From Streptomyces sp. TSRI0107 (GTDB lineage Bacteria; Actinomycetota; Actinomycetes; Streptomycetales; Streptomycetaceae): a stretch of 64,000 bases of DNA. Of the stretch, positions 3,747 to 28,622 are shown one piece after another (position 1 is the stretch's first letter; each line of letters begins with the position of its first letter). Where the stretch lies: positions 62,001-126,000 of the forward strand of contig NZ_LIVZ01000001.1 of assembly GCF_001905845.1 (NCBI RefSeq). Reading direction: 5' to 3'. Both the position numbers and the translations under genes were made by a program. Below the pieces are notes generated by a model. It saw only the letters and a program-made list of their open reading frames with translations. It had not been told where the DNA came from and did no database searches.

Positions 3747-4664
3747 ATGCGCGCCCAGTTCGTTCTGTCGGAGATCGGTGTCGGTCTCCGCCGCAATCTG
3801 ACGATGACCTTCGCCGTCGTCGTCTCCGTCGCCCTGTCCCTGGCCCTGTTCGGCGGCTCGCTGCTGATGACCGACCAGGTCAACACCATGAAGGGCTACT
3901 GGTACGACAAGGTCAACGTCTCGATCTTCCTCTGCAACAAGAGTGACGCCGAGTCCGACCCCAACTGCGCCAAGGGCGCCGTCACCGACGAGCAGAAGGA
4001 CCAGATCGTCGGCGACCTGAAGAAGATGCCGGTCGTCGACAGCGTCACGTACGAGTCGCAGGACCAGGCGTACAAGCACTACAAGGAGCAGTTCGGCGAC
4101 TCGCCGCTGGCCAGCTCGCTCACGCCGGACCAGATGCAGGAGTCGTACCGCGTCAAGCTGAAGGACCCGGAGAAGTACCAGGTCATCGCGAGCGCCTTCA
4201 ACGGCCGGGACGGCGTGCAGTCCGTGCAGGACCAGAAGGGCACCCTGGACAACCTCTTCGAGCTGCTGAACGGCATGAAATGGGCCGCCAGCGCGGTGAT
4301 GGCGCTCATGCTGGTCGTGGCCCTGATGCTGATCGTCAACACCGTGCGCGTCTCGGCGTTCAGCCGGCGGCGGGAGACCGGCATCATGCGCCTGGTCGGC
4401 GCCTCCGGCTTCTACATCCAGGCGCCGTTCATCGCGGAGGCCGCGGTCGCCGGACTCATCGGCGGCACGCTCGCCTGCGGCTTCCTGGTGGTCGCGCGGT
4501 ACTTCCTCATCGATCACGGACTGGCCCTGGCCGACCAGTTGACGCTGATCAACTTCATCGGCTGGGACGCCGTGCTGACGAAGCTGCCGCTCATCCTCGC
4601 CACCAGCCTTCTGATGCCCGCGCTGGCCGCGTTCTTCGCGCTGCGCAAGTACTTGAAGGTGTGA
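3747..4664 (+). CDS. ftsX: Cell division protein FtsX
   Basis: The 305-residue membrane partner of FtsE. It has a cytoplasmic N-terminus, TM1 at about 21-44, an extracellular domain of about 130 residues with one Cys pair (CNKSDAESDPNC) that is likely a disulfide, and three C-terminal TM helices with the conserved RRRETGIMRLVGAS loop that contacts FtsE. The extracellular domain normally binds and activates a wall hydrolase. Start ATG at 3747, preceded by GGAAAGG. A terminator follows. Confidence 0.96.
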   Translation: MRAQFVLSEIGVGLRRNLTMTFAVVVSVALSLALFGGSLLMTDQVNTMKGYWYDKVNVSIFLCNKSDAESDPNCAKGAVTDEQKDQIVGDLKKMPVVDSVTYESQDQAYKHYKEQFGDSPLASSLTPDQMQESYRVKLKDPEKYQVIASAFNGRDGVQSVQDQKGTLDNLFELLNGMKWAASAVMALMLVVALMLIVNTVRVSAFSRRRETGIMRLVGASGFYIQAPFIAEAAVAGLIGGTLACGFLVVARYFLIDHGLALADQLTLINFIGWDAVLTKLPLILATSLLMPALAAFFALRKYLKV

Positions 4665-4677
4665 CGCACGCCAAGAG

Positions 4678-4711
4678 GGGCCGTGCGGTCAACCGACCGT
4701 ACGGCCCTTTC
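4678..4711 (+). terminator. Terminator after ftsEX
   Basis: A 13-bp stem (GGGCCGTGCGGTC with GACCGTACGGCCC, one G-U pair) with AACC loop and TTTCC tail, 13 nt after the ftsX stop. It separates ftsEX from the S41 protease transcript. Confidence 0.85.
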
Positions 4712-4732
4712 CGTTGTCCTAGACTCACCGGC

Positions 4733-5896
4733 ATGTCAGGTCGTGACCTGTTCTGTCAGCCCCGCCGCATGCGCCGCGGGGCCGCCCTGACACTGCTCTT
4801 CGCGAGCGTGGTCGTCACCGGCGCCGCCACCGGCTCCCTGCCCGGCACCGAGCGCAGGCCCGCGCCCGGCCCGTCCCGCACGGCGGCCTCCGTGGCCCGC
4901 CCGGACGCAGTGACGGAGGCCGCCGTCGAGGCGATGGCCGACGGCAAGTCGCCCCTGGAGGCCGCCGAGCGGGCCGTCAGCCGCAGCGGGGACCGCTGGG
5001 ACGCCGTCTACTCCGAGGGCGAGTACGAGGAGTTCGAGGAGACCCTGGACGGCGCCTACACGGGCGTCGGGCTGGGGGCGCGGCGCGAGCGCGGCGGGCG
5101 GATCGAGGTGACCGAGGTGGCCGCCGGGTCGCCGGCGGACGCCGCCGGGATCCGCGCGGGCGACCGGCTGCGCAGCATCGACGGCCGCGCGGTCGACGGG
5201 CGGCCCGTGACCGAGGTGGTCTCCTTACTGCGCGGTGACGCCACCGACGCGCCCGCCGGCACGACCGTCCGGCTCGGCCTGGAGCGTGACACGCGCGAGT
5301 GGGACGTCACCTTGCGCAGGGCCCGCCTCTCGACCGACACGGTGAGCGTCCGCGAGCTCCCCGAGGGGGACACCCTCATCAAGATCGGCGCCTTCACCAG
5401 GGGCTCCGGCGACACCGTCCGCGCCGCCGTACGGAAGGCCCCGCGCGGTGCCGGGATCGTCCTCGACCTGCGCGGCAACCCCGGCGGCCTGGTCACCGAG
5501 GCCGTCACCGCCGCCTCCGCCTTCCTCGACGGCGGGCTCGTGGCCACCTACGACGTCGACGGGGACCAGCAGGCGCTGCACGCCGAGCTCGGCGGCGACA
5601 CCGAAAGACCCCTGGTCGCGCTCGTCGACGGGGGCACGATGAGCGCGGCCGAGCTGCTGACCGGCGCCTTGCAGGACCGGGGCCGCGCGGTCGTCGTCGG
5701 CTCCCGCACCTTCGGCAAGGGCTCGGTCCAGATGCCGAGCCGGCTGCCCGACGGCTCCGTCGCCGAGCTGACCGTCGGCCACTACCGCACTCCCTCCGGC
5801 CGCGCGGTCGACGGCCACGGCATCACCCCCGACCTGGAGGCCGACGAGGACGCGCTGCCCCGCGCGGAGACGGTGCTGACGGGCCTCGGCGACTAG
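4733..5896 (+). CDS. C-terminal processing protease, S41 family, with PDZ domain; contains a TTA codon
   Basis: A 387-residue exported serine protease of the CtpA/tail-specific type. Order: N-terminal hydrophobic export signal (residues 13-35), a helical region, PDZ domain (about 105-180, GVGLGARRE...GIRAGDRLRSIDG) and the S41 catalytic core. The Ser/Lys dyad is visible: S304 in GTMSAAE and K329 in FGKGSVQ. Start ATG at 4733; the open frame upstream runs into ftsX and has no signal. Its position after ftsEX suggests a role in wall-enzyme turnover. Codon 165 (5225-5227) is TTA, the rare leucine codon that depends on the bldA tRNA, so translation may be developmentally limited. Confidence 0.92.
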   Translation: MSGRDLFCQPRRMRRGAALTLLFASVVVTGAATGSLPGTERRPAPGPSRTAASVARPDAVTEAAVEAMADGKSPLEAAERAVSRSGDRWDAVYSEGEYEEFEETLDGAYTGVGLGARRERGGRIEVTEVAAGSPADAAGIRAGDRLRSIDGRAVDGRPVTEVVSLLRGDATDAPAGTTVRLGLERDTREWDVTLRRARLSTDTVSVRELPEGDTLIKIGAFTRGSGDTVRAAVRKAPRGAGIVLDLRGNPGGLVTEAVTAASAFLDGGLVATYDVDGDQQALHAELGGDTERPLVALVDGGTMSAAELLTGALQDRGRAVVVGSRTFGKGSVQMPSRLPDGSVAELTVGHYRTPSGRAVDGHGITPDLEADEDALPRAETVLTGLGD

Positions 5897-5979
5897 AGGG
5901 CCACCCAGCGGGACCCAGTGGGACCCTCCCTTAATGACTTCCCGCACACCCCCTCCGTAGTGCGAAAATGGTCGGCACT

Positions 5980-6459
5980 ATGGCTAAGGAAAAAGGGCGC
6001 AAACTGATCGCGCAGAACAAGAAGGCGCGGCACGACTACCTGATCCTCGACACCTACGAGGCCGGACTGGTCCTCACCGGCACCGAGGTGAAGTCACTGC
6101 GTCAGGGTCGCGCCTCGCTGGTCGACGGCTTCGTGCAGCTGGACGGTCACGAAGCGTGGCTGTACAACGTGCACGTGCCCGAGTACAGCCAGGGCACCTG
6201 GACCAACCACAGCGCCCGCCGCAAGCGCAAGCTGCTGCTGCACCGCGTGGAGATCGACAAGCTGGAGGCCAAGTCCCAGGAGACCGGCCACACGATCGTG
6301 CCGCTCGCCCTGTACTTCAAGGACGGCCGGGCGAAGATCGAGATCGCGCTGGCGAAGGGCAAGAAGGAGTACGACAAGCGGCAGACCCTGCGGGAGAAGC
6401 AGGACCGGCGCGAGGCGGAGCGCGCGATGTCCGCGGTGCGGCGCAAGCAGCGGGCCTGA
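5980..6459 (+). CDS. smpB: SsrA-binding protein SmpB
   Basis: SmpB binds tmRNA and brings it to stalled ribosomes for trans-translation. The 159-residue product begins [20 protein letters not shown] and contains the beta-barrel signatures [15 protein letters not shown] and [12 protein letters not shown] and a basic C-terminal tail that folds in the mRNA channel. I use ATG 5980; ATG 5968 (adding MVGT) is possible but breaks the family start. The tmRNA gene follows 117 nt downstream on the same strand. Confidence 0.97.
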
Positions 6460-7023: not shown

Positions 7024-7076
7024 GTCATGCGAGGCGGTCTGTTGTGGGGCCGGGGGATCCGGGATGCTGCGGTGGC

Positions 7077-8669
7077 ATGAAGAGATCAGGGGTCAACTCG
7101 CCCGGGCGGGCGTGGCGTTGGGTGTTGGTGGGCGGGCTGGTCGCCGGTCTGCTGGGGCCGGGGGCGTTCGCCGGGGCCGACGGGGATCGCAGCGGGCTGG
7201 CCGAGGCCATCGACACCGTGCTGGGCGACGCCCGGATGGAGGGCGGCGTGGCCAGTGTGGTGATCGCCGACACCGGGAGCGGCGAGGTGCTCTACCAGCG
7301 CAACGGCTCGACACGCCTGATGCCCGCCTCCACCACCAAGCTCGCCACCTCCGCCGCCGCCCTGGAGATCCTGGGCCCGGAGTACCGCTTCGGCACGGAC
7401 GTGCTGGCCGGCGGACGGCAGTACGGCTCGGTGCTCCGCGGCGATCTGTATCTGCGCGGCACCGGTGACCCAACCCTCCTCGCCGCCGACTACGACCGGC
7501 TCGCCGCCCGGGTCGCCGAGGCCGGGATCAAGCGGGTCGAGGGACGGCTCGTCGCCGACGACACCAGGTTCGACGCCGAGCGCGTCGGACGCGGCTGGGC
7601 GGCCGACGACGAGGCCGCCTACTACGCCGCCCAGATCAGCGCGCTGAGCGTCGCCCCGGACACCGACTACGACACCGGCACGGTGCTCGTGCAGGTCACG
7701 CCGGGTGCCAAGGCCGGGGACGAGCCGGTCGTCACGCTCACACCCGACACCGAGTACGTGGACGTCGACGTCCGCGCCACCACCGTCGCCGCCGGGGGCG
7801 CGGGCGCCCTCTCCGTCGACCGTGAGCACGGCACCAACACCGTCGTCGTCACCGGCACCACCCCCGTCGGCGGCAGCGGCGGCAAGGCGTGGATCAGCGT
7901 CTGGGAGCCCACCGGCTACGCCGCCGCCGTCTTCCGGGACGCCCTCGCCGCGCACGGCGTGCGGGTCACCGGGCCGACCCGGCTGGGCCGGCAGACACCG
8001 GAGGGCGCGCGGCGGCTGGCCGAGCACCGCTCCATGCCGCTGAAGGACCTGCTCGTCCCGTTCATGAAGCTGTCCAACAACATGCACGCCGAGGTGCTGA
8101 CCAAGGCCATGGGGTACGAGGTGTCCGGCAAGGGCAGCTGGTCCGCCGGGCTCGCCGCCGTCAGCGGCTACCTCAAGGGTGTCGGCGTCGACACCGCGAA
8201 GCTCCGCCAGGTGGACGGGTCAGGGCTGTCCCGGATGGACAACTTCCCCGCCGCCCAGCTCACCGCCCTCCTGCTCGCCGCCCGCGCGGAGCCCTGGTAC
8301 GCCGACTGGTACCGCTCCCTGCCGGTCGCCTGCGACCCCGACCGGTTCACCGGCGGCACCCTGCGCACCCGGATGTGCGGGACGCCCGCGGCGGGCAACG
8401 CCCGCGCCAAGACCGGTTCGCTGACCGGCGCTTCCGCCCTGGCCGGGTACGTCACCGACGCGGGCGGTCGTGAGCTGGCGTACGCCATCGTGCTCAACAA
8501 CCATCTGGCCTCGTCGGTGAAGCCTCTGGAGGACGCCATCGTCACCACCCTCGCCCGGTCCAGCGCGGAGGCGGCCACCTTGGTCACTCCTCGGCGAGCC
8601 CGGGGTGGGCAGGCGGAGGCCGAGTCCGATGGCCTGGAGTGCGCGTGGCGTAAGCCTGTGCGCTGCTGA
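7077..8669 (+). CDS. D-alanyl-D-alanine carboxypeptidase/endopeptidase, S13 (PBP4-type)
   Basis: A 530-residue exported low-molecular-mass PBP. The signal segment is at residues 12-37 (WRWVLVGGLVAGLLGPGAFA). All three penicilloyl-serine motifs are present: SxxK as STTK (S85, K88), SxN as SNN (S333-N335) and KTG (K445). The insertion between the first two motifs is typical of family S13. It trims D-Ala from peptidoglycan stems or cleaves cross-links outside the membrane. Start ATG 7077; the 11-codon extension to 7044 lacks a ribosome site. The last 40 residues (after TLARSSAEAATLV) are low-complexity and may be a drifted tail. Confidence 0.93.
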   Translation: MKRSGVNSPGRAWRWVLVGGLVAGLLGPGAFAGADGDRSGLAEAIDTVLGDARMEGGVASVVIADTGSGEVLYQRNGSTRLMPASTTKLATSAAALEILGPEYRFGTDVLAGGRQYGSVLRGDLYLRGTGDPTLLAADYDRLAARVAEAGIKRVEGRLVADDTRFDAERVGRGWAADDEAAYYAAQISALSVAPDTDYDTGTVLVQVTPGAKAGDEPVVTLTPDTEYVDVDVRATTVAAGGAGALSVDREHGTNTVVVTGTTPVGGSGGKAWISVWEPTGYAAAVFRDALAAHGVRVTGPTRLGRQTPEGARRLAEHRSMPLKDLLVPFMKLSNNMHAEVLTKAMGYEVSGKGSWSAGLAAVSGYLKGVGVDTAKLRQVDGSGLSRMDNFPAAQLTALLLAARAEPWYADWYRSLPVACDPDRFTGGTLRTRMCGTPAAGNARAKTGSLTGASALAGYVTDAGGRELAYAIVLNNHLASSVKPLEDAIVTTLARSSAEAATLVTPRRARGGQAEAESDGLECAWRKPVRC

Positions 8670-12118: not shown

Positions 12119-12388
12119 CAATGCGTATACAGAAATCCGGTAGGCATATGCTCGGATCGGCCGCGCGAGCTCAGGCCAGCCGCCCTTCGCTTCAGATGTG
12201 ACCTGTTCCGCCCGACTTTGTGTGGAGACTTTGCGAAGGGCGCTGGTAACTTGAGAGCGCCGCGGTGACCCGCGAGGTCCGGGGGGATTCAGGGTTTGCG
12301 GTCGCTGCTGCGGCAACCGACAGCAAACTCTCGTACGTCTGTACGTCTGCCTGCGCGAGCAACATGGAGTGCGGAGGGAGGCACAGTC

Positions 12389-14728
12389 GTGACCCAGGCA
12401 GGGCAGGGGGGACGCGATCGGGGCGGCGACGAGGTGCCCCTTTCGCCGGACGAGACCATGCAGTTGAAGGTCCCGGCGCCGCAGCAGCGAGCGGCCGCCG
12501 ACGAGACCATGCAACTGCGCGTACCCGAGGGTGGCATACCCGAGGGCGGCATACCCAAGGGCGGCAAAGCTGATGACTCCGGCACAGCCGACGGATCCGG
12601 CACAGCCGACGGATCCGGCAAAGCCGACGGAGCCGGTTCCGGTGAGTCCGAGACCTCCGGTACGCCCTCCCGGCGCCGCCGCAAAGCCGCCCGCCCCTCT
12701 CCCGCCGCCCGCCTCGCCGCCGGCCTGACCGCGGCGCTCGGCCCCCGCCTGGCCCCCGTGCTCGGCCCCGTCGCCGCCTTCCTCGGCCCCTGCCTCCGCC
12801 GGATGCGCCCGCAGTACCCCCGGCCCGGCCGCACCGGCTGGCGGCGCTGGATCCCGTCCTGGAGGCAGAGCCTCGGCGGCTTCCTCGCCACCCTCGGCCT
12901 CAGCAGCCTCCTCCTGGTCGTCGCCTACGCGGCCACCGACATCCCCGAGGACCTCAACACCTACGCCACCCAGCAGGACAACGTGTACTTCTGGGCCGAC
13001 GGCACCCCCATGGCCCGTACCGGCTGGGTGCTGCGGCAGTCGATGTCGCTGGACGACATCCCCGAGGACGTCCGCTGGGCGGTCCTCGCCGCCGAGAACG
13101 AGAGCTTCTACAGCGACCCCGGAATCTCCTTCAAGGGCATCACCCGCGCCGTGTTCCGCACCCTCGGCCAGGGCGACACCCAGGGCGGCTCGACCATCAC
13201 CCAGCAGTACGTCAAGAACGTCTACCTCAGCCAGGACCAGACCGTCAGCCGCAAGTTCACCGAGGCGATGATGGCTCTCAAGCTCGACAACCGGATGAGC
13301 AAGGACGAGATCCTCGAGGGCTACCTCAACACCAGCTGGTTCGGCCGCGGCACCTACGGCATCCAGCGCGCCGCCCAGGCCTACTACGGCAAGGACGTCA
13401 GCGAGCTGAACGTCAGCGAGGCCGCCTTCCTCGCCTCCCTGCTCAAGGGCGCCGGCCTCTACGACCCCACGCTCAGCCAGGCCAACCACGAGCGGGCCGT
13501 GGAACGCTGGTCGTGGATCCTCGACCGGATGGTCGCGATCGGCAAGCTGTCGCCGCAGGAACGCGCCAAGTACACGAAGTTCCCGGAGCCGCTGGAGAGC
13601 AACCCGCTGTACGACACCGGTGAGCAGAGCGACTACCTGGTCGAACTCGCCGCCCAGTACGCCAAGAAGACCGCGCACATCTCCGACCCGGAGTTCGACC
13701 GCGGCGGCTACCAGATCTACACGACCTTCGAGAAGGGCCGCGAGGACCAGCTCACCGAAGCCGTGACCAAGGCCCGCAAGCAGGCGAAGAAGGACAACCC
13801 GAAGGAGGCCAGGACCGCCCATTACGGCGCCGCCTCCATCGCCGCCGACGGCCGGATCCTCGCCGTCTACGGCGGCCCCGACCACCGCAAACAGGGCTAC
13901 AACGAGTCCAACGCGACCACCGTCCCCGCCGGATCGGCGTTCATGCCGTTCGTCTACGCCGCCGGACTGGAACACGGCGTCCGCAAGAGCCGCGACGGCG
14001 AACCCACCCCGGTGACCGGGGAGACCCTCTACAACGGCGACGACGAAGTGCCCGTCACCACACCCGAGGGCCCCTACTGGGACCGCAGCGGCCGCAAGGT
14101 CGCCGCACGCAACGACGGCGGCAAGTCCTACGGGCAGATCTCCCTGCACCAGGCGCTCGCGCTGTCCGTCAACACCCCGTTCATGCAGCTCGGCATGGAC
14201 ACCGGGCTGGAGAAGGTGCGCTCCACCGCCGAGGCCTCCGGGCTGCTGCCCTCCAGCATCGGCGCCCAGGTGCCCACCCTGTCCACCGGCAGCTCCACCC
14301 CCAGCGCCATCCGGATGGCCAGCGGCTACGCCACCTTCGCCGCCGACGGCAGGCACACCGAGCCGTACTCGGTGCGGAAGATCACCCACAACGGCCGCAC
14401 GGTCGCCCTCGACAAGCCGGCCACCCGCCGCGCAATGGGCGCCGACACCGCCCGCGAGGTCCAGTCCGCGCTCGTCGACGCCTTCCGCGCCGCCCACCCG
14501 GAGGCCGCGTCCGCCTCCACCGCGGTCGCCGGGAAGGCCGGCACGACCGAGAACGACAAGGCCGCCTGGTACGTCGGCACCGCCGAGAAGGTGTCCACCG
14601 CGGTCGTCGTCTACCGCATGGACCTCGGCAAGAGCCTGGAACCCCTGCCGCTGGAAGGTCTGGCCGGGACGGCCGCCGACAGCGTCCCGTACGGCATCTG
14701 GTCCAGTGCCGTGAGACCGCTCGGCTGA
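12389..14728 (+). CDS. Class A penicillin-binding protein with altered transpeptidase motifs
   Basis: A 779-residue bifunctional-type PBP. Order: disordered, Thr/Gly-rich cytoplasmic N-terminus with two DETMQL motifs, TM anchor (SLGGFLATLGLSSLLLVVAY), GT51 glycosyltransferase and a transpeptidase-like domain. The GT51 active site is intact: E236 in AAENESFYSD and GGSTITQQYVKN. The transpeptidase is not canonical: SxxK reads SAFM (S516, Met519 instead of Lys), SxN is SVN (593-595), and KTG reads KAG (716-718). The missing general-base Lys suggests weak or no transpeptidation or beta-lactam acylation. GTG 12389 follows GGAGGGAG. The next two genes, also exported and wall-related, follow on the same strand. 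Confidence 0.93.
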   Translation: MTQAGQGGRDRGGDEVPLSPDETMQLKVPAPQQRAAADETMQLRVPEGGIPEGGIPKGGKADDSGTADGSGTADGSGKADGAGSGESETSGTPSRRRRKAARPSPAARLAAGLTAALGPRLAPVLGPVAAFLGPCLRRMRPQYPRPGRTGWRRWIPSWRQSLGGFLATLGLSSLLLVVAYAATDIPEDLNTYATQQDNVYFWADGTPMARTGWVLRQSMSLDDIPEDVRWAVLAAENESFYSDPGISFKGITRAVFRTLGQGDTQGGSTITQQYVKNVYLSQDQTVSRKFTEAMMALKLDNRMSKDEILEGYLNTSWFGRGTYGIQRAAQAYYGKDVSELNVSEAAFLASLLKGAGLYDPTLSQANHERAVERWSWILDRMVAIGKLSPQERAKYTKFPEPLESNPLYDTGEQSDYLVELAAQYAKKTAHISDPEFDRGGYQIYTTFEKGREDQLTEAVTKARKQAKKDNPKEARTAHYGAASIAADGRILAVYGGPDHRKQGYNESNATTVPAGSAFMPFVYAAGLEHGVRKSRDGEPTPVTGETLYNGDDEVPVTTPEGPYWDRSGRKVAARNDGGKSYGQISLHQALALSVNTPFMQLGMDTGLEKVRSTAEASGLLPSSIGAQVPTLSTGSSTPSAIRMASGYATFAADGRHTEPYSVRKITHNGRTVALDKPATRRAMGADTAREVQSALVDAFRAAHPEAASASTAVAGKAGTTENDKAAWYVGTAEKVSTAVVVYRMDLGKSLEPLPLEGLAGTAADSVPYGIWSSAVRPLG

Positions 14729-14786: not shown

Positions 14787-16079
14787 ATGAAACAACCGTC
14801 GGGCCGCCGCCGCAAGGCCCGTGCACGCCGCCGCCCCGCCGCCGCCCGACCGGGGTTCCTCACCCTGGCGGCGTGCCTCGTCGTCGCCTCCCTCGTCGCC
14901 GGCTACCTGGTGCTCTCCCGCACCGACGACACCGCCCCGACCGCGTCCGCCCAGGACGGCCCGAAGTCGTCGCAGCCGACCGCGCGGGCGAGCGAGGAAC
15001 CGGAGTGGGACGGCAAGACGAAGGTGCTCGGCGACGGCTCGACCTCCTACACCGGCCCGCAGAAGAACCAGTTGAAGCCGGAGCCGCTCAAGCCCGGCCA
15101 GAAACCGCCGCAGTTCGTGGTCTTCTCCTGGGACGGCGCCCTCCAGGGCGACGACGGCCTCTTCTCCCACTACCGGGAGATGGGCCGGCAGTACGACGCC
15201 CACATGACGTACTTCCTCACCGGCATCTACCTGCTGCCCAAGAGCAAGAAGGACCTCTACTCCCCGCCCCAGCACCCCAAGGGCACCGCGGCGATCAGCT
15301 TCCCCACCGACGAACACATCCGCACCACCCTGGAGCAGCTCGGCGGCGCCTGGAAGGACGGCAACGAGATCGGCACCCACTTCAACGGCCATTTCTGCGG
15401 CGCCAAGGGCGGCGGCGACTGGAGCGTCGAGGAGTGGAAGAGCGAGATCGACCAGTTCTACGAGTTCGTCGAGAAGTGGAAGACGAACACCGGCTACACC
15501 GACCTCGACCCGCTGCCCTTCGACATCAAGAAGGAGGTGGTCGGCGGCCGCGCCCCCTGCCTCGAAGGGCAGGCCAACCTGCTGAAGGCGGCCGAGAGCT
15601 ACGGCTGGCGCTACGACGCAAGCTCCGCCGGCGACTTCCAGATCTGGCCGACGAAGAAGAACGGCATCTGGGACTTCCCGCTTCAGATGCTCCCGTACGA
15701 GGGCGGCAAGTACCAGGGCCTGTCCATGGACTTCAACTTCCTCTACAACCAGTCCGACGGCGAGACCGACGGCGATCCGGCCATGTACCCGCAGTGGCAG
15801 CAGGAGACCTTCGACGCCTACATGGCCGGGTTCAACCGCGTCTACTACGGCAGCCGCGCCCCGCTGTTCATCGGCAACCACTTCGAGCAGTGGAACGGCG
15901 GCATCTACATGAACGCCGTCGACGACATGATCAAGACCGTGTGCACCAAAAAGGACGTCAAGTGCGTGTCCTTCAAGGAACTCGCCGACTGGATGGACGC
16001 CCAGAAGCCGGCCACCCTGGAGCGGCTGCGCACCCTGGATCCGGCGCAGGCACCCGACTGGTCGACGGTCGTCCAGTGA
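14787..16079 (+). CDS. Membrane-anchored polysaccharide deacetylase-like protein
   Basis: 430 residues: a very basic N-terminus, one signal-anchor helix (FLTLAACLVVASLVAGYLVL), a Ser/Thr-rich linker, and a NodB-like catalytic domain facing outwards. VFSWDG stands where carbohydrate esterase 4 has TFDDG (metal Asp), and THFNGH supplies the HxxxH metal ligands. Two Cys-containing loops (HFCGAKG, APCLEG) may form disulfides. A wall-glycan deacetylase acting on GlcNAc or teichoic sugars is likely, matching the PBP 58 nt upstream. The first motif departs from consensus, so activity is not certain. Confidence 0.8.
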   Translation: MKQPSGRRRKARARRRPAAARPGFLTLAACLVVASLVAGYLVLSRTDDTAPTASAQDGPKSSQPTARASEEPEWDGKTKVLGDGSTSYTGPQKNQLKPEPLKPGQKPPQFVVFSWDGALQGDDGLFSHYREMGRQYDAHMTYFLTGIYLLPKSKKDLYSPPQHPKGTAAISFPTDEHIRTTLEQLGGAWKDGNEIGTHFNGHFCGAKGGGDWSVEEWKSEIDQFYEFVEKWKTNTGYTDLDPLPFDIKKEVVGGRAPCLEGQANLLKAAESYGWRYDASSAGDFQIWPTKKNGIWDFPLQMLPYEGGKYQGLSMDFNFLYNQSDGETDGDPAMYPQWQQETFDAYMAGFNRVYYGSRAPLFIGNHFEQWNGGIYMNAVDDMIKTVCTKKDVKCVSFKELADWMDAQKPATLERLRTLDPAQAPDWSTVVQ

Positions 16080-16225: not shown

Positions 16226-17395
16226 GTGAAGTCAAGGAAAGTGAGTCGTACGCGGCGTCGCGCGACGATACTCACGGCAGCCGCCGCCTCCGTCGTCGCG
16301 GGCGTCGCACTGCTGCCCAACTGGAGCGCCGGAGCGTCCACCACGACCGAACCAGAGGTGGACGCCAAGACGAAGGCCACGTTCCAGAAACTGGCCGACG
16401 CGGTCTTCACCGACCGCACCAACGCCCTGGTCGACGAGTCGGCGGCCGACCAGCCGCGGACCGACGGCTTCTCCGGCCGGGTCGCGCTCTCCTCCGGTGC
16501 GGCCCGCACCGAGGACAGCGCCCTGGACCAGCTCGGCGACCGCAAGGACCGGCTGGCCCGGCTCGGCGAGAAGTACAGCGCGGCGAACACCTCCGTCACC
16601 CTGGACCGCACCCGGGTGCGCGGTCGTACGGCCGTCGTCGCGGTCACCGAGACCACGACGCTGACGTACGACAAGGTGCGCGGCGACGAGCCGAAGTCGA
16701 CCGGGTTCCAGGCCCACCACGAGTTGACCTTCAGGGCCGACAAGAGCGGCAACTGGCGGCTCACGGGCATCCGGGAGACCGACGACGGCGGCTTCGCGGT
16801 CAACCAGCTCGCCAAGTCGAGGACCGCCGCCACCACCACCGACGACACCATGCCGTCGGCCCCGCGCGCGGCCATCACCCGGCCCGCGCCGTCCAACCCG
16901 AAGAACTTCACCGCCAGCGGCTACGACTACAAGGCGATGGCCGCCTACGCGGAGAAGTACTGGCGCAACTACAACCCGGCCTACCCCGACTTCAACGGGC
17001 AGGGCGCGGGCGGTGACTGCACCAACTTCGTCAGCCAGTCCCTGAAGGCGGGCGGCTGGAAGCACGTGCCGGGCTACGTGTACGACTACACCCGGTGGTT
17101 CGGCAACGCCGACATCCAGTCGCACTCGTTCGTCGGCGTCAACGAGTGGTCCTGGTTCGCGCTGAACTCCAAGCGCGTCACCAGCCTCGCGAACGTCTAC
17201 CAGATGGACGTCGGCGACGTCCTCCAGGTCGACTTCGACAAGGACGGCTCCAAGGACCACACGATGATCGTCACGTACCGCAGCCCCCAGGGCGTGCCGT
17301 ACCTGACGTACCACTCCACCAACACCTACCGCCGCTCGGTGGCGAGCGTCATCGCGTCGTACCCGAACGCGGCGTACTACGCGTACCGCACCTGA
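16226..17395 (+). CDS. Secreted amidase-domain (NlpC/P60-like) protein
   Basis: 389 residues with a signal peptide (KSRKVSRTRRRATILTAAAA...SAGA). A middle domain of about 150 residues resembles an SCP/NTF2-like fold region without a clear family. The C-terminal putative amidase domain (about 230-389) has the catalytic Cys in GGDCTNFVSQSL and His in KDHTMIVTY. It probably cleaves or remodels peptidoglycan outside the cell. GTG start at 16226 after GAGGGGAAA. It is the third exported wall protein in this run. Confidence 0.85.
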   Translation: MKSRKVSRTRRRATILTAAAASVVAGVALLPNWSAGASTTTEPEVDAKTKATFQKLADAVFTDRTNALVDESAADQPRTDGFSGRVALSSGAARTEDSALDQLGDRKDRLARLGEKYSAANTSVTLDRTRVRGRTAVVAVTETTTLTYDKVRGDEPKSTGFQAHHELTFRADKSGNWRLTGIRETDDGGFAVNQLAKSRTAATTTDDTMPSAPRAAITRPAPSNPKNFTASGYDYKAMAAYAEKYWRNYNPAYPDFNGQGAGGDCTNFVSQSLKAGGWKHVPGYVYDYTRWFGNADIQSHSFVGVNEWSWFALNSKRVTSLANVYQMDVGDVLQVDFDKDGSKDHTMIVTYRSPQGVPYLTYHSTNTYRRSVASVIASYPNAAYYAYRT

Positions 17396-21416: not shown

Positions 21417-24400
21417 GTGTTCCGTCGACTCACGTATGCCCGTGTTCGCAGGGGGCGTTTGGCGCGCATCGCCGTGCCGGTGACCGCGGCAGCGTTGTTG
21501 GTGGGCCTCTTGCCCGCCGAGGCACTCGCGCTGCCGCCGGACCCGGCGAAAGAGGAGGTCGGACGTGAGTCGCTGGTTCTCGAGGAGCTCAAGCGCGAGA
21601 CGCCGGTGCCCGGTCTGGCCAGCGCCGCTTCCCGGCGCTTGGAGAGACTCAAAGCACTGGCACCCACCAATCTGACCGCCCCGCTGCCCGGCACGGTCAC
21701 TCCGCCGTCCAACGTGAGCGGCACGGTCACCTTCGGATCCGACGCGACTCCCGCTTCCGTGCGCACCTCCGGTGGCGAGGCGGAGCAGGTGGCGCTGAGC
21801 CCGGTCGGCTCCCTGCCCGTGAGCCTGGGCCAGGCTTCCGACAAGCCGGCGCCGACAGGCACCTGGCAGGTCACGATCCCGGACCGTGCCTCCGCTGTCG
21901 GTCAGGGCATCGACGGCGCCCTCATGGTGGTGCGGGCCCCTGACACCGGTTCGGTTCCGGTGTCGGTGAAGCTCGACTACTCCAGGTTCGAGAGCCTGTA
22001 CGGTGCCGACTGGGCGTCCCGGTTGCAGTTGGTGCAGTTCCCCGAGTGCTACCTGGCCACGCCGGACGACGAGGCGTGCCAGGCGTACGAGGAACTGGAA
22101 ACCAGCAACGACACGGCATCGAAGTCCATCACCGCCACGGTTGATCCGGCTGCCGACGGCACTGTGACGCCCGCCGCCGCGGAAAGAGACTCCACTTTCG
22201 GATCCGGCGTCGTCCAGGCGGCCTACCGTTCGTCCACATCGGCGACTCCCGCGGCCGCCGGTGACACGGCCGTCGTGGGCGCCGTGGACTCGGGAGCCGG
22301 GAACGGCGGCAGTTTCAAGGCGACACCGCTCGCTTCCGACGGCAAGTGGGAGGTCGCCGGCTCGTCGGGCGCCTTCGTGTGGGAGTACCCGCTCATCGTG
22401 CCCAGCCCCCCAGCGGGACCCGCGCCCAGGATTTCCTTCACCTACAACTCCCAGACGGTGGACGGCCGCACCGCTGTCTCCTCGCCCCAGGCGTCCTGGA
22501 TCGGCGAGGGCTGGACCTACGACCCGGGCTATATCGAACGCCGCTACCGCACCTGCAAGGACGACCGCAAGACTCTCGACTCCGGCACACCCAACAACAC
22601 GGCGTCGAAGGACAAGACCTCCGACCTCTGCTGGGTGTCGTACAACGCGGTGCTGTCCCTCAACGGCCAGACCAACGAACTCGTGCGCATCGCGACAGCC
22701 GACAGCAAGCCCGAGACCGAGACCGAGTACTACCGCCTCCAGAAGGACGACGGCACCCGCGTCGAGCACCGGGTCGGCGGTACCAACGGTGACAACAACG
22801 GTGAGTACTGGGTCGTCACCACAGTGGACGGCACCAAGTACGTGTACGGACAGCACCAGGTCGGCGGCGGCCACGCCGACACGAACTCCGTCTCGACCGT
22901 TCCCGTGTTCGGCAACCACCCCGATGAGCCCTGCCACGCCACCGCCTTCGCCGACTCGCGCTGCGGTGCCGGCAAGCGCCAGGCCTGGCGCTGGGGGCTG
23001 GACAAGGTGGTCGACGTCCACGGCAACACGATGATCGTCAACTGGAAGCAGGAGACGAACAACTACGCCGTCCGGGAGAAGTACAAGAGCCCTGAGCAGT
23101 ACGACCGTTACGCCTATCCGACGTCCATCGAGTACGGCATGCGGCCGGACTCCTTGACCAGCCCGTCCGCGGTGGTCGAGTTCGGCGTCGAGCAGCGCTG
23201 CCTCAAGTCGGCCACCGTCTGTGACCCGGCGAACTTCGCCAAGACCGAGGACCCGGGCGCCTACCGCTTGTGGTGGGACACTCCCGGCAACCTCAACTGC
23301 AAGTCGACCTCCAAGATGTGCCCCGCGTTCCCGTCCTTCTGGACGCAGATGCGCCTGGACAAGGTGACCACCAAGGCCCACCGCGCGGGTCAGACCGGCC
23401 TCGGCCTGGTCGACAAGTACACCCTGCACCAGTCGTTCCCCGCGGACTGGTACGACTCCGCGCCCGGTCTGTGGCTGAACTCCATCACCCGCACCGGTTA
23501 CGCCCCCGGCGACACCAAGGGCACCGTCCAGTCCGATGACGGCGTCAGCTTCTCCGAATACCGGGTGGGCAAGGACTCGCCGCTGAAGGGCCGGCTCGCG
23601 GACCGTCAGCTGCCGAACCTGGTTCCCGCGGGCAAGGACGATCAGACGCCGGGCTTCACCCGGCCCCGCATCGGCACGGTCTCCACCGAACATGGTGGTG
23701 ACATCGAGGTGGAGTACACCGGCGGCTGCGCTGTGGCGCCGGGGGAGGACAAGGGCGAGCGCAACGGCACCTGCTACCCGGTGCGGTGGTCGATCGACCC
23801 GGACGTGAAGACGCCATCGAAGGTCTGGTTCAACAAGTACGTCGTCGACTCCGTCACGGAGATCGACAAGATGACCTCGCGCGGCAGGCCCGTCGTGTCG
23901 AAGTACGCGTACTCGGGGGCCGCCTGGGCGAAGAGCGATGACGAGTTCACCCGGCCGGCGCTGCGCACCCACAGCGACTGGAAGGGCTATCAGGAAGTCT
24001 CCGTCCGCAAGGGCAGCAAGAGCACCTCCGAGCAGGGCCAGCTCAACGGTCAGTCCCACAGCGTCACGCGCTACTTCCAAGGCGTCGGTGGTGCGGTGAA
24101 GGACTCGACCGGGACGAAGACACTGCTCTCGGAGGACGCACCGCAGTTCGCGGGCATGTCCGCCGAAAGCATCACGTACCTGGACGGCAGGCAGCAGAAG
24201 CGCACCCTCACCTTCCCGGCCTCGAAGCAGACCGCGTCGCGCACCCGTGAGAACGAGGACGGAACGGCCGCTGATCCGCTGCTCGCCCACCGGGTGTGGG
24301 TCGAGCGGAGGGACCAACTGCAGCGGGCCGACGCGGACTGGCGCACCATCCGCACCACCACCGAGGTCGACGACACCTACGGATTGCCCACACAGGTGGA

Positions 24401-27400
24401 GACCGGAGTCGTCGAGGGCGACGGGCTCTCCGACCCGGTCTGCACCACGACGTCGTATGTGCACAACACCTCTGCGTGGCTGATCGGACTGGTCAAGGAG
24501 CAGCGCACCACTGGCACCACCTGTGCGGCTCAGCCCGCCGCCGACCCCGCCACCAAGCTCAAGTCGTCGGTGCGGAACACCTACGACGACCTGACCCACG
24601 GTGCGACTCCCAGCAAGGGATTGCTCACCTCACAGGCAACGAATGACGGGGCCGGCACTGCTCACTCGCACGTCACGACGACGACGTACGACCCCCTGGG
24701 CCGAGTCCGCAAGGTGACGGCGCCCGGCACGGGCACCACCGAGACCGAGTACACCCCCGGGGACGACGGCGGTCCGGTGACGAAGGTGAGGTCCATCAAC
24801 GCCATGGGCCACGCCACCACCCTGACCTTCGATCCGGGACGCGGTCTTCCGATGACCGCAACCGACCCCAACGGCCGGGTCACGCGCAACGAGTACGACG
24901 CCCTCGGCCGTCTGGTGAAGGGCTGGACACCGTCGCGCTCCTCCGTCGGCCAGTCGCCGACCGTCCAGATCTCCTACCAGAACGCCGTGGCGACCTCGAA
25001 GGAGAACCGCCCGGCCTCGGTGACCGTCCAGACACTCAAGGACGACGGCACCTACGCCCGCGAGATCACGCTTTACGACGGCCTGCAACGCGAAGTCCAG
25101 AGGCAGACCGAGGCACATGGCCCCGGCCGGATCATCGTGGACACCAAGTACAACGACCACGGCCTGGTAAGCGAGAAGACCAGCGGATACCTGGCGAAGG
25201 GCGACCCGAGCACACAGCTCTTCGCCCCCAGGTCGACATCCCTGATAGCCAGTTCGACCAAGTACCGCTATGACGGTCTGGAGCGCCCCTACTGGGCGGG
25301 GATCTACCACAGCGACCAGTACAAGTACGCGACGCTGACCAGCTACGGCGACACGTCCACCTACGTCGACCCACCAGGCTCCACGATCCCCCGCACCCGG
25401 ACCGCCTACGACGCCCTCGGCCGCGTCACCTCGATCAAGCACTACAGCAAGGACGGGGCCGACGAGGGCCGCACAACGTCCTACGAGTACGACGCCCGCG
25501 GCAACCGCAGCAAGGTCGTCGACCCTGCCGGCAACACCTGGTCCTACGTCTACGACGCTCGCGGCCGGGTGACGTCCACCACCGACCCCGACACCGGCAC
25601 GACCGAGACCTGGTACGACGAGGCCGACCGTCCGCACCGCGTCAAGAACTCCCGTGGGCAGGAGACGTTCACCGAGTACGACTCCCTCAGCCGTATCCGC
25701 CACGTGCGGGAGGGCTCCGCGACGGCCACCCCCGTCAAGTCGTTCACCTACGACTCGGCGTATGGCGGAGTCGGCAAGCCGGCAGAGTCCATCAGGCGCA
25801 CCCCGAACGGTGACTACGTCAACCGCGTCAACAGCTACGACGCCGAGTACAACGTCACCCGGAGCGAGACCGTCATCCCGGCGAACTCGATGACCACGGG
25901 CCTCTCCGGCACGTACGCCTACACCTTCACGTACACGCCCACAGGGAAGCCGCAGTCGGTGACTCTGCCGGAGAAGGGCGGCCTGGCGAGGGAAAAGGTC
26001 GTCACGCGCTACAACTCCGATGGCCTCCCGGAGTCGACGTCGGGTCTGACCTGGTACACGTCCGACGTCACCTACTCCCCCTTCGGGGAGGTCATGCGCA
26101 CGGTTTCCGCTGCGCAGCCCTACCGAGTGTGGACGACGAACTTCATCGATCCGCACACCGGCCGTCTCCAGCGCACGGTGGCCGACCGGGAGACGGCTGC
26201 CAACCGCATCACGGACAACCGCTACTCCTATGACCTCTCCGGCACGATCACGTCCAGCATGCGCGAGCTCGCGAGCGAGAGCGGTGCCAAGACGTGGGAC
26301 ACCCAGTGCTTCACGTACGACGCCATGGGCGAGTTGACGCACGCCTGGACGTCCACCATCAAGCCCCTCGGGGACGGCACGGGCTGCAAGGCGGCCAACG
26401 GCACCACCTGGGGCTACCGCGCCGACTACGCGACGTCCACCGGACCGGTCGCCGACGCGCCCGACGAGTCCACGGATTCGGCGACGCCCGACCCGAGGCT
26501 GACGCAGTCGCTCGCTGCCGCAGCGCCCGACGCGGCCACGGTCTCCACCGGTGACACCGCCTACCGCCAGTCGTTCACCTTCGACTGGATCGGCAACCGC
26601 GCCACGTTGACGGAGCACGACCCGGTGGACGCGACGAAGAACATCACCTACCGCTACGGATACGGCAAGCAGATCACGGGCAACGGCACGACCGCGCCCT
26701 ACCTGGCCCAGCCGCACACGATGACGTCGATCGCCTCGACCCCGACGGGCAAGGACAGCACCTACTCGTACGACGCGACGGGCAACACCAAGGCCCGCGA
26801 CCTGCACGACAGGGACCAGACCCTGGACTGGACGTCCGAGAGCAAGCTGGACGCGATCACGGACAACGGCACCAAGACGACGTACGTCTACGACGCCGCC
26901 GGCAACCGCATCCTGGAGAACTCACCGACGGGTTCGACCCTCTACCTGGGCGAAACGGAACTGACGACTAACAGCACGGGCTCCATCACCCGAGCATCGC
27001 GTTCCTACGGCCAGGCCGGCGCACCCACGGTGGTCCGCACGACCACCAACGCGGCCACGACCGGCCACAAGCTCAGCGTCCTCCTCGCCGACCACCTCGG
27101 CACCGCCAACACGTCGGTTGACGTCGCCTCCGGCCAGGCCGTGACCCGCCGTTCCTTCAAGCCGTACGGCGAGGTCCGCGGCACCAAGCCGACGAGCTGG
27201 CCCAACAAGCGCAGCTACGTGGGCACGGGCATCGACGACGCGGCGACGGGGCTGACGCACATTGGCGCCCGGGAGTACGACCAGAGTTCTGGGCGCTTCC
27301 TGTCGGCGGACCCGCTGATCGACATCGCCGACCCGCTCCAGATGAACGGGTACAGCTATGCGAAGAACAGCCCGATCAGCACCAGCGACCCGGACGGGCT

Positions 27401-28622
27401 CAAGCCGGTCACCCCATGCGACAGAGGCTGCGATGACGGTGACGACAGCTATCGGGACTGGATGACTCAGAACCCTGACGGCACCTGGTCGTACCACTAC
27501 GAGAACACCCGCTACGTCTATGAGGGCGGGACAGGCGACCTTGTCTCTACCACCAAGCGAGGCAGCGAGCACCCGGGGTTCGGCAAGAAGACCGTGTTCA
27601 AGGGGTACAAGCCGGGACTTGAGCACACGATCTTCAAGGTTAGTGTCTCGCTCTTTATGCCTGATCCCTCGGACTGGGTGGACTGCTTCAGCGGCTCCGG
27701 AGTGAAGAGTTGTGCCATCGCGTCAACGGACCTGCCTTGGCTCAAGGCTCTGAAGCTGGTACCCAACTCGGTGATCGAGAAGGGGACCAAGGCGGTCGAG
27801 GACTGGCTCTCGAAGCGTCCCAAGGGATGCAAGTGCTTCCTTGCCGGGACGGACGTCCTGATGGCCGACGGCACGACCAAGGACATCGAGGACGTCGAGC
27901 TGGGCGACAAGGTCCTGGCGACCGACCCGGAAACCGGTAAGACGGCGGCGCGCGAGGTCACCCGTCTGATCCGCACCGAGGGCGATAAGCACTTCAATGA
28001 GCTGTCCATTGCCACAGAGGAAGGCATCGAGAAGCTCACGGCAACCCACGAGCACCCCTTCTGGTCCCCTTCCGCGCTCCTCTGGGTCGAGGCGAGAGAG
28101 CTCAAGCCGGGCATGACCCTGCTGACCGACAAGGGCGAAACGGTCGTCGTCACGGGCAACCGCGCGTTCACCAGGCACGCACGGACTTACAACCTCACTG
28201 TTGATGACCTGCACACGTACTATGTGCTGGCAGGGGCTACGCCGGTCCTGGTTCACAATTCCGACTGCCCGCTGACCGGTGGCTTCAAGGCGGGTGTGAC
28301 CCCTGACGAGATCGCCGATATCAACCGTGGATTTGGCGGTGAAACCCTGCTGAGTGGCTCGCCCGCGAACACCATGGCTAACGCCAGTCGCTATAACAGC
28401 TTCTGGGATAAGTCGGCCGTCGTGATTCGTGACATCGCTGGTGGTCACATGTTCAACAACGGAAACAAGCGCACGGCTCAAGCTGTCGTAGAGCAGCTGA
28501 TGCAACGTAACAACGTTACAAGTGGCCCCACTTCTGCCGATCTCCGAAGTGTCATCGACAGAGTAGGTAAAGGTCAGCTACACGACGTCAGTGACATCTC
28601 GGCAGCCTTGAGGGGCTATTGA
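21417..28622 (+). CDS. RHS-repeat polymorphic toxin with HINT domain and Fic/Doc-like C-terminal tip
   Basis: A secreted 2401-residue toxin. Residues 1-40 form a signal peptide (ending ALALPPD). An N-terminal beta-rich region of about 1000 residues precedes YD/RHS repeats (about 1085-1870, e.g. YDALGRL, YDARGRVTS), and the RHS core ends at GREYDQSSGRFLSADPLID-like residues near 1970. A variable linker leads to a PT-HINT self-cleaving domain from C2140 (CFLAGTDVLM) to VHN (2279-2281). The 120-residue tip follows. Its HMFNNGNKRTA (H2344-A2354) fits the Doc-type Fic motif HxFx(D/N)xNKR. Doc-type enzymes phosphorylate EF-Tu; this target is inferred. GTG start at 21417. The candidate immunity gene begins 14 nt after the stop. 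Confidence 0.9.
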   Translation: MFRRLTYARVRRGRLARIAVPVTAAALLVGLLPAEALALPPDPAKEEVGRESLVLEELKRETPVPGLASAASRRLERLKALAPTNLTAPLPGTVTPPSNVSGTVTFGSDATPASVRTSGGEAEQVALSPVGSLPVSLGQASDKPAPTGTWQVTIPDRASAVGQGIDGALMVVRAPDTGSVPVSVKLDYSRFESLYGADWASRLQLVQFPECYLATPDDEACQAYEELETSNDTASKSITATVDPAADGTVTPAAAERDSTFGSGVVQAAYRSSTSATPAAAGDTAVVGAVDSGAGNGGSFKATPLASDGKWEVAGSSGAFVWEYPLIVPSPPAGPAPRISFTYNSQTVDGRTAVSSPQASWIGEGWTYDPGYIERRYRTCKDDRKTLDSGTPNNTASKDKTSDLCWVSYNAVLSLNGQTNELVRIATADSKPETETEYYRLQKDDGTRVEHRVGGTNGDNNGEYWVVTTVDGTKYVYGQHQVGGGHADTNSVSTVPVFGNHPDEPCHATAFADSRCGAGKRQAWRWGLDKVVDVHGNTMIVNWKQETNNYAVREKYKSPEQYDRYAYPTSIEYGMRPDSLTSPSAVVEFGVEQRCLKSATVCDPANFAKTEDPGAYRLWWDTPGNLNCKSTSKMCPAFPSFWTQMRLDKVTTKAHRAGQTGLGLVDKYTLHQSFPADWYDSAPGLWLNSITRTGYAPGDTKGTVQSDDGVSFSEYRVGKDSPLKGRLADRQLPNLVPAGKDDQTPGFTRPRIGTVSTEHGGDIEVEYTGGCAVAPGEDKGERNGTCYPVRWSIDPDVKTPSKVWFNKYVVDSVTEIDKMTSRGRPVVSKYAYSGAAWAKSDDEFTRPALRTHSDWKGYQEVSVRKGSKSTSEQGQLNGQSHSVTRYFQGVGGAVKDSTGTKTLLSEDAPQFAGMSAESITYLDGRQQKRTLTFPASKQTASRTRENEDGTAADPLLAHRVWVERRDQLQRADADWRTIRTTTEVDDTYGLPTQVETGVVEGDGLSDPVCTTTSYVHNTSAWLIGLVKEQRTTGTTCAAQPAADPATKLKSSVRNTYDDLTHGATPSKGLLTSQATNDGAGTAHSHVTTTTYDPLGRVRKVTAPGTGTTETEYTPGDDGGPVTKVRSINAMGHATTLTFDPGRGLPMTATDPNGRVTRNEYDALGRLVKGWTPSRSSVGQSPTVQISYQNAVATSKENRPASVTVQTLKDDGTYAREITLYDGLQREVQRQTEAHGPGRIIVDTKYNDHGLVSEKTSGYLAKGDPSTQLFAPRSTSLIASSTKYRYDGLERPYWAGIYHSDQYKYATLTSYGDTSTYVDPPGSTIPRTRTAYDALGRVTSIKHYSKDGADEGRTTSYEYDARGNRSKVVDPAGNTWSYVYDARGRVTSTTDPDTGTTETWYDEADRPHRVKNSRGQETFTEYDSLSRIRHVREGSATATPVKSFTYDSAYGGVGKPAESIRRTPNGDYVNRVNSYDAEYNVTRSETVIPANSMTTGLSGTYAYTFTYTPTGKPQSVTLPEKGGLAREKVVTRYNSDGLPESTSGLTWYTSDVTYSPFGEVMRTVSAAQPYRVWTTNFIDPHTGRLQRTVADRETAANRITDNRYSYDLSGTITSSMRELASESGAKTWDTQCFTYDAMGELTHAWTSTIKPLGDGTGCKAANGTTWGYRADYATSTGPVADAPDESTDSATPDPRLTQSLAAAAPDAATVSTGDTAYRQSFTFDWIGNRATLTEHDPVDATKNITYRYGYGKQITGNGTTAPYLAQPHTMTSIASTPTGKDSTYSYDATGNTKARDLHDRDQTLDWTSESKLDAITDNGTKTTYVYDAAGNRILENSPTGSTLYLGETELTTNSTGSITRASRSYGQAGAPTVVRTTTNAATTGHKLSVLLADHLGTANTSVDVASGQAVTRRSFKPYGEVRGTKPTSWPNKRSYVGTGIDDAATGLTHIGAREYDQSSGRFLSADPLIDIADPLQMNGYSYAKNSPISTSDPDGLKPVTPCDRGCDDGDDSYRDWMTQNPDGTWSYHYENTRYVYEGGTGDLVSTTKRGSEHPGFGKKTVFKGYKPGLEHTIFKVSVSLFMPDPSDWVDCFSGSGVKSCAIASTDLPWLKALKLVPNSVIEKGTKAVEDWLSKRPKGCKCFLAGTDVLMADGTTKDIEDVELGDKVLATDPETGKTAAREVTRLIRTEGDKHFNELSIATEEGIEKLTATHEHPFWSPSALLWVEARELKPGMTLLTDKGETVVVTGNRAFTRHARTYNLTVDDLHTYYVLAGATPVLVHNSDCPLTGGFKAGVTPDEIADINRGFGGETLLSGSPANTMANASRYNSFWDKSAVVIRDIAGGHMFNNGNKRTAQAVVEQLMQRNNVTSGPTSADLRSVIDRVGKGQLHDVSDISAALRGY

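Follow-up and report, generated by a model that had tools for sequence, protein, structure and literature searches.

We analysed a 64,000-nucleotide stretch of DNA from Streptomyces sp. TSRI0107 (contig NZ_LIVZ01000001.1, positions 62,001 to 126,000), referred to here in its full length as the window. It contains a gene for a homologue of the class A penicillin-binding proteins (PBPs), followed on the same strand by genes for a protein of predicted NodB/CE4 fold, PDA430, and for an Amidase_6 protein (Table 1). The PBP has a GT51 domain with both catalytic glutamates, a fold of the PF00905 type and an SxN motif, but it has neither the SxxK nor the KTG motif. The original prediction had read SAFM and KAG in their places, and both the DNA and its translation bear this out. 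The match to Pfam Transpeptidase (PF00905) covers residues 563-742 only (E 9.2e-18, positions 71-275 of a 299-position profile), and since it begins at residue 563 and profile position 71, the end of the profile that contains SxxK is left unmatched. Four further class A PBPs were found in the same 8.74 Mb genome, each with SxxK, SxN and KTG, so that cross-linking need not rest on the protein of the window.

Table 1. Features of the locus, in window coordinates.
Feature	Position	Strand	Basis
Conserved upstream element TTGCGAAGGGCGCTGGTAACTTGAG	12231..12255	+	alignment, window and 11 orthologues
Class A PBP homologue, 779 aa, transpeptidase domain non-catalytic by sequence	12389..14728	+	translation, Pfam, orthologue alignment
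GT51 (Transgly) domain, residues 205-381, E236 and E292 intact	13001..13531	+	Pfam E 2.4e-60; alignment
Transpeptidase-fold domain, residues ~486-742	13844..14614	+	Pfam for 563-742; extent from alignment
SAFM replacing SxxK, residues 516-519	13934..13945	+	DNA read TCG GCG TTC ATG
TPEGPYWDR, residues 558-566, signature of the clade without the SxxK lysine	14060..14086	+	alignment
SVN (SxN motif kept), residues 593-595	14165..14173	+	translation, alignment
KAG replacing KTG, residues 716-718	14534..14542	+	DNA read AAG GCC GGC
PDA430, 430 aa, NodB/CE4-fold protein, no Pfam match	14787..16079	+	linkage, predicted fold, motifs
Amidase_6 (PF12671) protein, third cassette gene in Streptomyces clade 1	16226..17395	+	Pfam

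The SxxK lysine is missing from every orthologue that was aligned. From a scan of named genomes, in which 197 relatives were confirmed, we took the 80 best loci; 79 of them bear the title Streptomyces and the remaining one 'Actinobacteria bacterium OV320'. In all 80 the lysine is absent, its position, 519, being taken by Leu (45), Gln (21), Thr (6), Met (4) or Glu (4). Among the same loci, Ser516 is replaced by Thr in 12, SxN is intact in 79, and position 717 is most commonly Ala (51), with Thr in five. We also assembled a wider set of 160 distinct sequences lacking the lysine (hereafter no-Lys sequences), which takes in further genomes and includes some fragments. Position 519 is there Leu in 61, Thr in 43, Gln in 25, Ala in 17, Met in seven, Glu in five, and Ser and Gly in one each, but Lys in none, while position 516 is Ser in 111, Thr in 48 and Pro in one. 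The KTG threonine is retained in 26 of the 160, the KTG lysine (Lys716) in 144, and the SxN residues Ser593 and Asn595 in 147 and 154, respectively. In genus g7, Lys716 is gone from 14 of 16 rows; the sequence with Pro516 is L223. The glycosyltransferase site, which the original prediction had described as intact, is invariant in the no-Lys sequences that cover it (Glu236 in 135/135, Glu292 in 136/136), and the same pair is intact in 29 of 29 paralogues with SxxK. That prediction had also asked whether Met519 and Ala717 are fixed in orthologues. Met519 is not, only the absence of lysine being fixed, and Ala717 is simply the commonest residue. Finally, it had allowed that orthologues might keep SxxK; they do not, and a sequencing error or a local mutation as the cause of the motif loss is thereby ruled out.

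Counted by genome, Lys is absent at position 519 in all 82 genomes whose members were aligned, and likewise in G120 and G199, which were read separately; a family match in G205 was left out of the sequence set. BLAST with composition-based statistics returned no match for one pair of proteins with 52% identity across 720 residues, and missed a true member (L236) that was recovered without them. The linkage counts given below, though not the residue counts, were recomputed with these statistics off.

A member of the family occurs in 42 of 101 Streptomyces genomes drawn evenly and including that of TSRI0107, membership being set at a transpeptidase identity of at least 49% (paralogues reach at most 43%). 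By the same identity gap, 48 of 121 Streptomycetaceae genomes have the family, namely 13 of 28 Streptomyces and 35 of 93 others (genera g3, g7, g13 and g14). A class-wide draw of 197 genomes, searched at E 1e-62, gave a match in 10 of 16 Streptomyces, whereas the 181 genomes from outside this genus had none. When we built a tree of 93 sequences with the motif columns excluded (clade 1 thinned to about one in six; a quick method without bootstrap), 64 no-Lys sequences fell on one side of one branch and the other 29 on the opposite side, with a value of 100 in the Shimodaira-Hasegawa-like approximate likelihood ratio test (SH-aLRT), so that one change accounts for the distribution. We infer that the SxxK lysine was lost once, in an ancestor within the Streptomycetaceae: the single change is seen on the tree, and its direction is taken to be a loss rather than a gain because the outgroups are SxxK paralogues together with a far outgroup, L005.

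A second degenerate group of Streptomyces class A PBPs was met on the same tree. Its five members (L165, L166, L167, L168 and L170, from genomes G085, G081, G034, G093 and G008) cluster together, apart from the no-Lys clade. They keep SxxK (GSAFKPF, GSVFKPF) and are altered in SxN and KTG, with Gly593 in 5/5 and Arg or Ala at 716.

For comparisons of constraint we used 43 PBPs with SxxK as controls, setting aside these five and the distant L005. In the 43 controls, positions 516, 519, 593, 595 and 716-719 are all invariant; with the six rows restored, Ser593 and Lys716 each stand at 44 of 49. In 135 no-Lys sequences, positions 519 and 717 rank at the 85th percentile when columns are ordered by variability, and 516, 593, 595 and 716 are still within the more conserved half of columns. 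The number of invariant columns in the transpeptidase half is nearly the same in the two sets (34 in no-Lys, 35 in controls), but these are largely different columns. Constraint was gained in the no-Lys set at 11 transpeptidase columns, of which nine fall within 535-568; eight of these lie in the narrower stretch 558-568, where the signature TPEGxYWxR is found: T558, E560, Y563 and W564 are present in 135/135, P559 in 134 and R566 in 133, whereas the same columns vary in the 43 SxxK PBPs. Constraint was lost at twelve columns, including 519 and six in 714-735.

The transpeptidase half also changes faster than the glycosyltransferase half. The median ratio of transpeptidase to glycosyltransferase distance, in bins of glycosyltransferase identity, is 1.55-2.90 for no-Lys PBPs against 1.05-1.28 for PBPs with SxxK and KTG; by genus, it is 1.41-1.79 in g7 and 1.16-1.38 in g14. 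Ratios of nonsynonymous to synonymous substitution (dN/dS) by NG86, a weak method here, had transpeptidase medians of 0.38-0.47 in the no-Lys set, and the SxxK controls were higher in both domains (0.70, 0.78), probably through saturation at their greater divergence. We preferred the distance ratios for that reason, namely that controls gave the higher dN/dS in both domains. We read these patterns as a transpeptidase domain that swapped catalysis for another conserved role, its catalytic columns drifting while a new patch arose.

The no-Lys PBP is accompanied by a particular neighbour. A gene of the PDA430 type adjoins it in 80 of 80 named loci, and in 48 further loci the partner is present in 47, in convergent (31), divergent (12) or co-directional downstream (4) orientation. 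The gap between the two genes in the further loci has a median of 113 nucleotides (nt), is below 620 nt in 46 and reaches 2.0 kb in L211. No partner was found beside PBPs with SxxK in 49 loci (29 paralogues, for which the shorter flank is at least 1.2 kb, and 20 controls). Among the 101 Streptomyces genomes, the PBP and a close partner homologue (at least 62% identity) occur in an identical set of 42, the two being on separate short contigs in G099. The partner family as a whole is matched in 100 of the 101 genomes, cassette copies included, with at least one further match in each of the 42. Around 21 such generic homologues no class A PBP was found in the roughly 4 kb of flanking sequence retrieved, and the neighbours of one of them (L179), a sulfate transporter/carbonic anhydrase and a HAD hydrolase, give no functional hint. 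On a partner tree (quick method, clade 1 thinned to one in five), 64 cassette partners separate from the 21 generic homologues with SH-aLRT 100.

PDA430 itself matches no Pfam family up to E 10, has a single NCBIfam match of 17.1 bits against a cut-off of 100, and yields no usable match to PDB sequences; a profile search returned only an insect chitin deacetylase at E 0.044. Its predicted model (pLDDT, the predicted local distance difference test score, 72.8) matches the NodB fold of 3rxz with Z 19.0 and a root-mean-square deviation of 3.2 over 234 residues, the next matches being H. pylori 3qbu and then insect chitin deacetylases. A helix is predicted at low confidence at the N terminus (residues 30-43). 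In the family, S114, W115, D116, G117, H198, H202, R255, P257 and D277 are invariant in 161 of 161 rows, and N364 and H365 are found in 160. By the motif roles set out in the accessible part of PMC4505593, the CE4 metal triad Asp-His-His corresponds to D116, H198 and H202, an assignment made by motif rather than by coordinates, while the first Asp of motif 1, the catalytic base, is Trp115 in all 161 rows. The 21 generic homologues also have Trp at this position, which is thus a trait of the whole partner family and not of the cassette.

In the Streptomyces clade 1 loci a third gene completes the cassette. Amidase_6 is matched in 80 of 80, over 60% of its length in 77, with Cys265, Asp344 and His345 identical in all 80 rows covering them; outside the named clade 1 set it is matched in just 8 of 48 loci. 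In clade 1 the PBP and partner are separated by a median of 49.5 nt, and the partner and amidase by a median of 115 nt, with start codons placed by alignment. Genes that precede the PBP in the window are matched in at most 4 of 80 loci (nine of the 80 have less than 1 kb upstream). The cassette also occurs on plasmids: a plasmid search gave 16 records, six with identity above 60%, and the three PBPs inspected (NZ_CP108254.1, NZ_CP109164.1 and NZ_CP081497.1) all lack the SxxK lysine. NZ_CP108254 and NZ_CP081497 bear the PBP-partner-amidase trio, and NZ_CP109164 just the PBP and partner. In the latter the annotated coding regions of the two overlap; about 5.5 kb beyond the PBP there is a transposase of the Tn3 family. 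Two annotated plasmid records name the products transglycosylase domain-containing protein, hypothetical protein (the NodB partner) and amidase domain-containing protein.

Some other features of the window deserve mention. The upstream element TTGCGAAGGGCGCTGGTAACTTGAG occurs once in the window, and a 20-base version of it, with three mismatches allowed, once in the whole genome; it overlaps an inverted repeat (GGCGCT...AGCGCC), and 8 of the 11 orthologues aligned at it show no match to the LysR gene that lies upstream in the window. It is probably a promoter or a regulator site. SigmaE-like promoters were found in 5 of 75 stretches upstream of the PBP, which is no signal, since shuffled sequences gave 2.6 on average and 7 at most; no Sigma-70 consensus was found. 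The N-terminal tail of the PBP (window 12449-12526) contains DETMQL(K/R)VP twice. Of 88 clade 1 sequences, 73 have a motif of the ETxxL type, a possible phospho-threonine/FHA site; it is absent from the 47 remaining no-Lys sequences and the 29 SxxK sequences tested. Farther upstream (7044-8669 and 3747-6459) lie genes for an S13 D-Ala-D-Ala carboxypeptidase, ftsX and smpB, assigned by Pfam, and an S41-protease-like gene recognized by eye, all outside the conserved block. Downstream, an RHS-repeat-like protein of 2401 aa (21417-28622), in which an intein-like stretch and a short C-terminal domain were seen by eye, is possibly a polymorphic toxin or a relative of one.

Taken as a whole, the protein appears to be a class A PBP by descent that, judged by its sequence, would no longer be a penicillin-binding transpeptidase. 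Since the catalytic residues of its GT51 domain are invariant, this domain should still be able to build glycan strands from lipid II, and after the loss of SxxK the transpeptidase domain would have been retained as a non-catalytic module. The PBP probably acts together with the adjoining NodB/CE4-fold protein; their linkage is observed, and the partnership may be physical or in a common pathway. Most likely the pair produces a glycan strand, which this PBP would leave un-cross-linked, and marks or edits it. Polymerisation by the PBP should persist when beta-lactams block other PBPs, because the usual acyl-enzyme would not form. We therefore favour, with good though not full confidence, a glycan polymerase that does not cross-link, whose pseudo-transpeptidase has been repurposed and which would work with the NodB partner. 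The linkage of PBP and NodB protein suggests a separate route to wall material without cross-links. The original prediction had offered a glycosyltransferase with a pseudo-transpeptidase as one of its two options, and at the level of sequence this option is supported, having outlasted both the search for orthologues with SxxK and that for a substitute lysine.

Its other option, low affinity for beta-lactams, would make the protein an active transpeptidase with another general base, such as Lys716 or a new basic residue, and hence resistant. Ser or Thr is found at 516 in 159 of the 160 sequences, SxN is kept in most, Lys716 in 144, and position 569 is newly basic, Lys or Arg, in 128 of 135; moreover, Ogawara regarded such proteins as functional PBPs in the accessible text of PMC6273383. 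However, position 519 takes Leu, Thr, Gln, Ala, Met, Glu, Ser or Gly, g7 has mostly lost Lys716, L223 has Pro516, and the Ser or Thr at 516 may instead be a helix cap. Because the nucleophile, the general base and KTG all vary, this is the weaker reading, and we consider it unlikely. The search for a lysine that might occupy the site, as the original prediction had proposed, found no new one conserved in at least 80% of sequences in the transpeptidase half, where only the old KTG Lys716 reaches that level; and at 569 the basic residue is Arg in 39 of the 128, which argues against a general base there. A substitute base is thus unlikely. It is even less probable that the transpeptidase is a decaying half, useless baggage behind a working glycosyltransferase. 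Its faster change and the drift of its catalytic columns would fit such decay, but no internal stop was reported in any listed family match, 34 of its columns are invariant in 135 sequences, 11 have gained constraint, and the dN/dS medians, weak as the method is here, also count against it.

A more serious, if still doubtful, alternative is that the transpeptidase pocket reversibly binds D-Ala-D-Ala stems or beta-lactams and, as a sensor or scaffold, would steer the NodB partner or the glycosyltransferase domain. The retention of SxN and Lys716 in most sequences, the strict linkage to the NodB gene and the new conserved patch are all consistent with it, but g7 keeps the linkage mostly without Lys716. 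The neighbourhood might also be a co-inherited block without functional meaning, since the cassette occurs on plasmids and the linkage could therefore stem from joint transfer. We find this very improbable, as the orientation of the partner varies among the 47 loci and the upstream genes of the window are hardly ever carried along. Several observations nevertheless weigh against a non-cross-linking polymerase with a NodB partner. The partner is missing at one locus (L250, genome G170), where the no-Lys PBP and the amidase are kept, although this genome has a second no-Lys PBP (L249) with a partner. Arg535 and Arg566 are new and, with the basic residue at 569, might provide a substitute basic group. 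The distance ratio in g14 is near that of active PBPs, so the relaxation is uneven. SxN and Lys716 are mostly kept, and therefore the pocket may still bind a ligand or show residual acylation. Lastly, the AlphaFold model of the whole PBP, made with 48 clade 1 sequences, was discarded (pLDDT 47.7; predicted template modelling score 0.33), leaving the pocket unseen.

Compared with active Streptomyces class A PBPs, the no-Lys protein keeps the domain order, the GT51 motifs and the transpeptidase fold, but lacks the SxxK lysine and mostly the KTG threonine, and has TPEGxYWxR and a NodB neighbour. Monofunctional glycosyltransferases (MGT, SgtB) are not known to carry a transpeptidase domain. Like them, the no-Lys PBP would polymerise lipid II and make no cross-links, but unlike them it retains a conserved transpeptidase domain. 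PDA430 resembles the CE4/NodB deacetylases in its fold and, by motif, in its Asp-His-His metal set. Other CE4 members are off the standard pattern: SwsB has Asn at the catalytic-base position (accessible part of PMC12444981), and BA3943 is named a pseudoenzyme in its PDB titles. PDA430 differs from SwsB, as from the CE4 deacetylases, in having Trp as the catalytic-base residue and no Pfam match.

Class A PBPs without the SxxK motif are themselves already in print. According to the accessible text of Ogawara 2016 (PMC6273383), SxxK is missing from 13 of 100 class A PBPs of Streptomyces, for example SCAB_64431 and SSFG_02387, and the conclusion drawn there is that they are able to function as PBPs; in that part of the paper they are treated without reference to neighbouring genes, common origin or shifted constraint. 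These 13 probably include members of the no-Lys family: one of ours (L085) is located at 7.138 Mb in S. scabiei 87.22, close to the position expected from the SCAB_64431 locus number. Another, L008, is from S. viridosporus, probably the species to which the SSFG locus tags belong. What is new here is the single origin, the catalytic drift with the TPEGxYWxR signature, and the NodB linkage, on which no study was found in the literature searched, subscription papers being mostly outside that search.

A polymerase, an amidase and a NodB protein together recall the Bacillus spore-cortex route (a polymerase, CwlD and PdaA/SwsB), so far as it is described in the accessible parts of PMC10116595 and PMC12444981, but the cassette uses another amidase family in other organisms, and only the gene set resembles that route. 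By analogy, one might imagine a Streptomycetaceae pathway for a second kind of glycan, in which a polymerase blind to beta-lactams would use its transpeptidase domain as a docking or substrate-reading module, and its strands would be edited by the NodB protein and, in clade 1, by Amidase_6, much as CwlD and PdaA/SwsB edit the spore cortex; muramic residues that lack a stem or bear a lactam would be a possible product. We offer this as a speculation with a small chance of being right.

A dead transpeptidase that a bacterial family has retained, with new conserved residues, would be a natural test of the non-catalytic roles of PBP transpeptidase domains. The linkage to the PBP also offers a concrete function to test for the NodB protein and its relatives. 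Should the polymerase prove truly blind to beta-lactams, this would go some way towards explaining how soil bacteria that live among these compounds continue to synthesize glycan strands.

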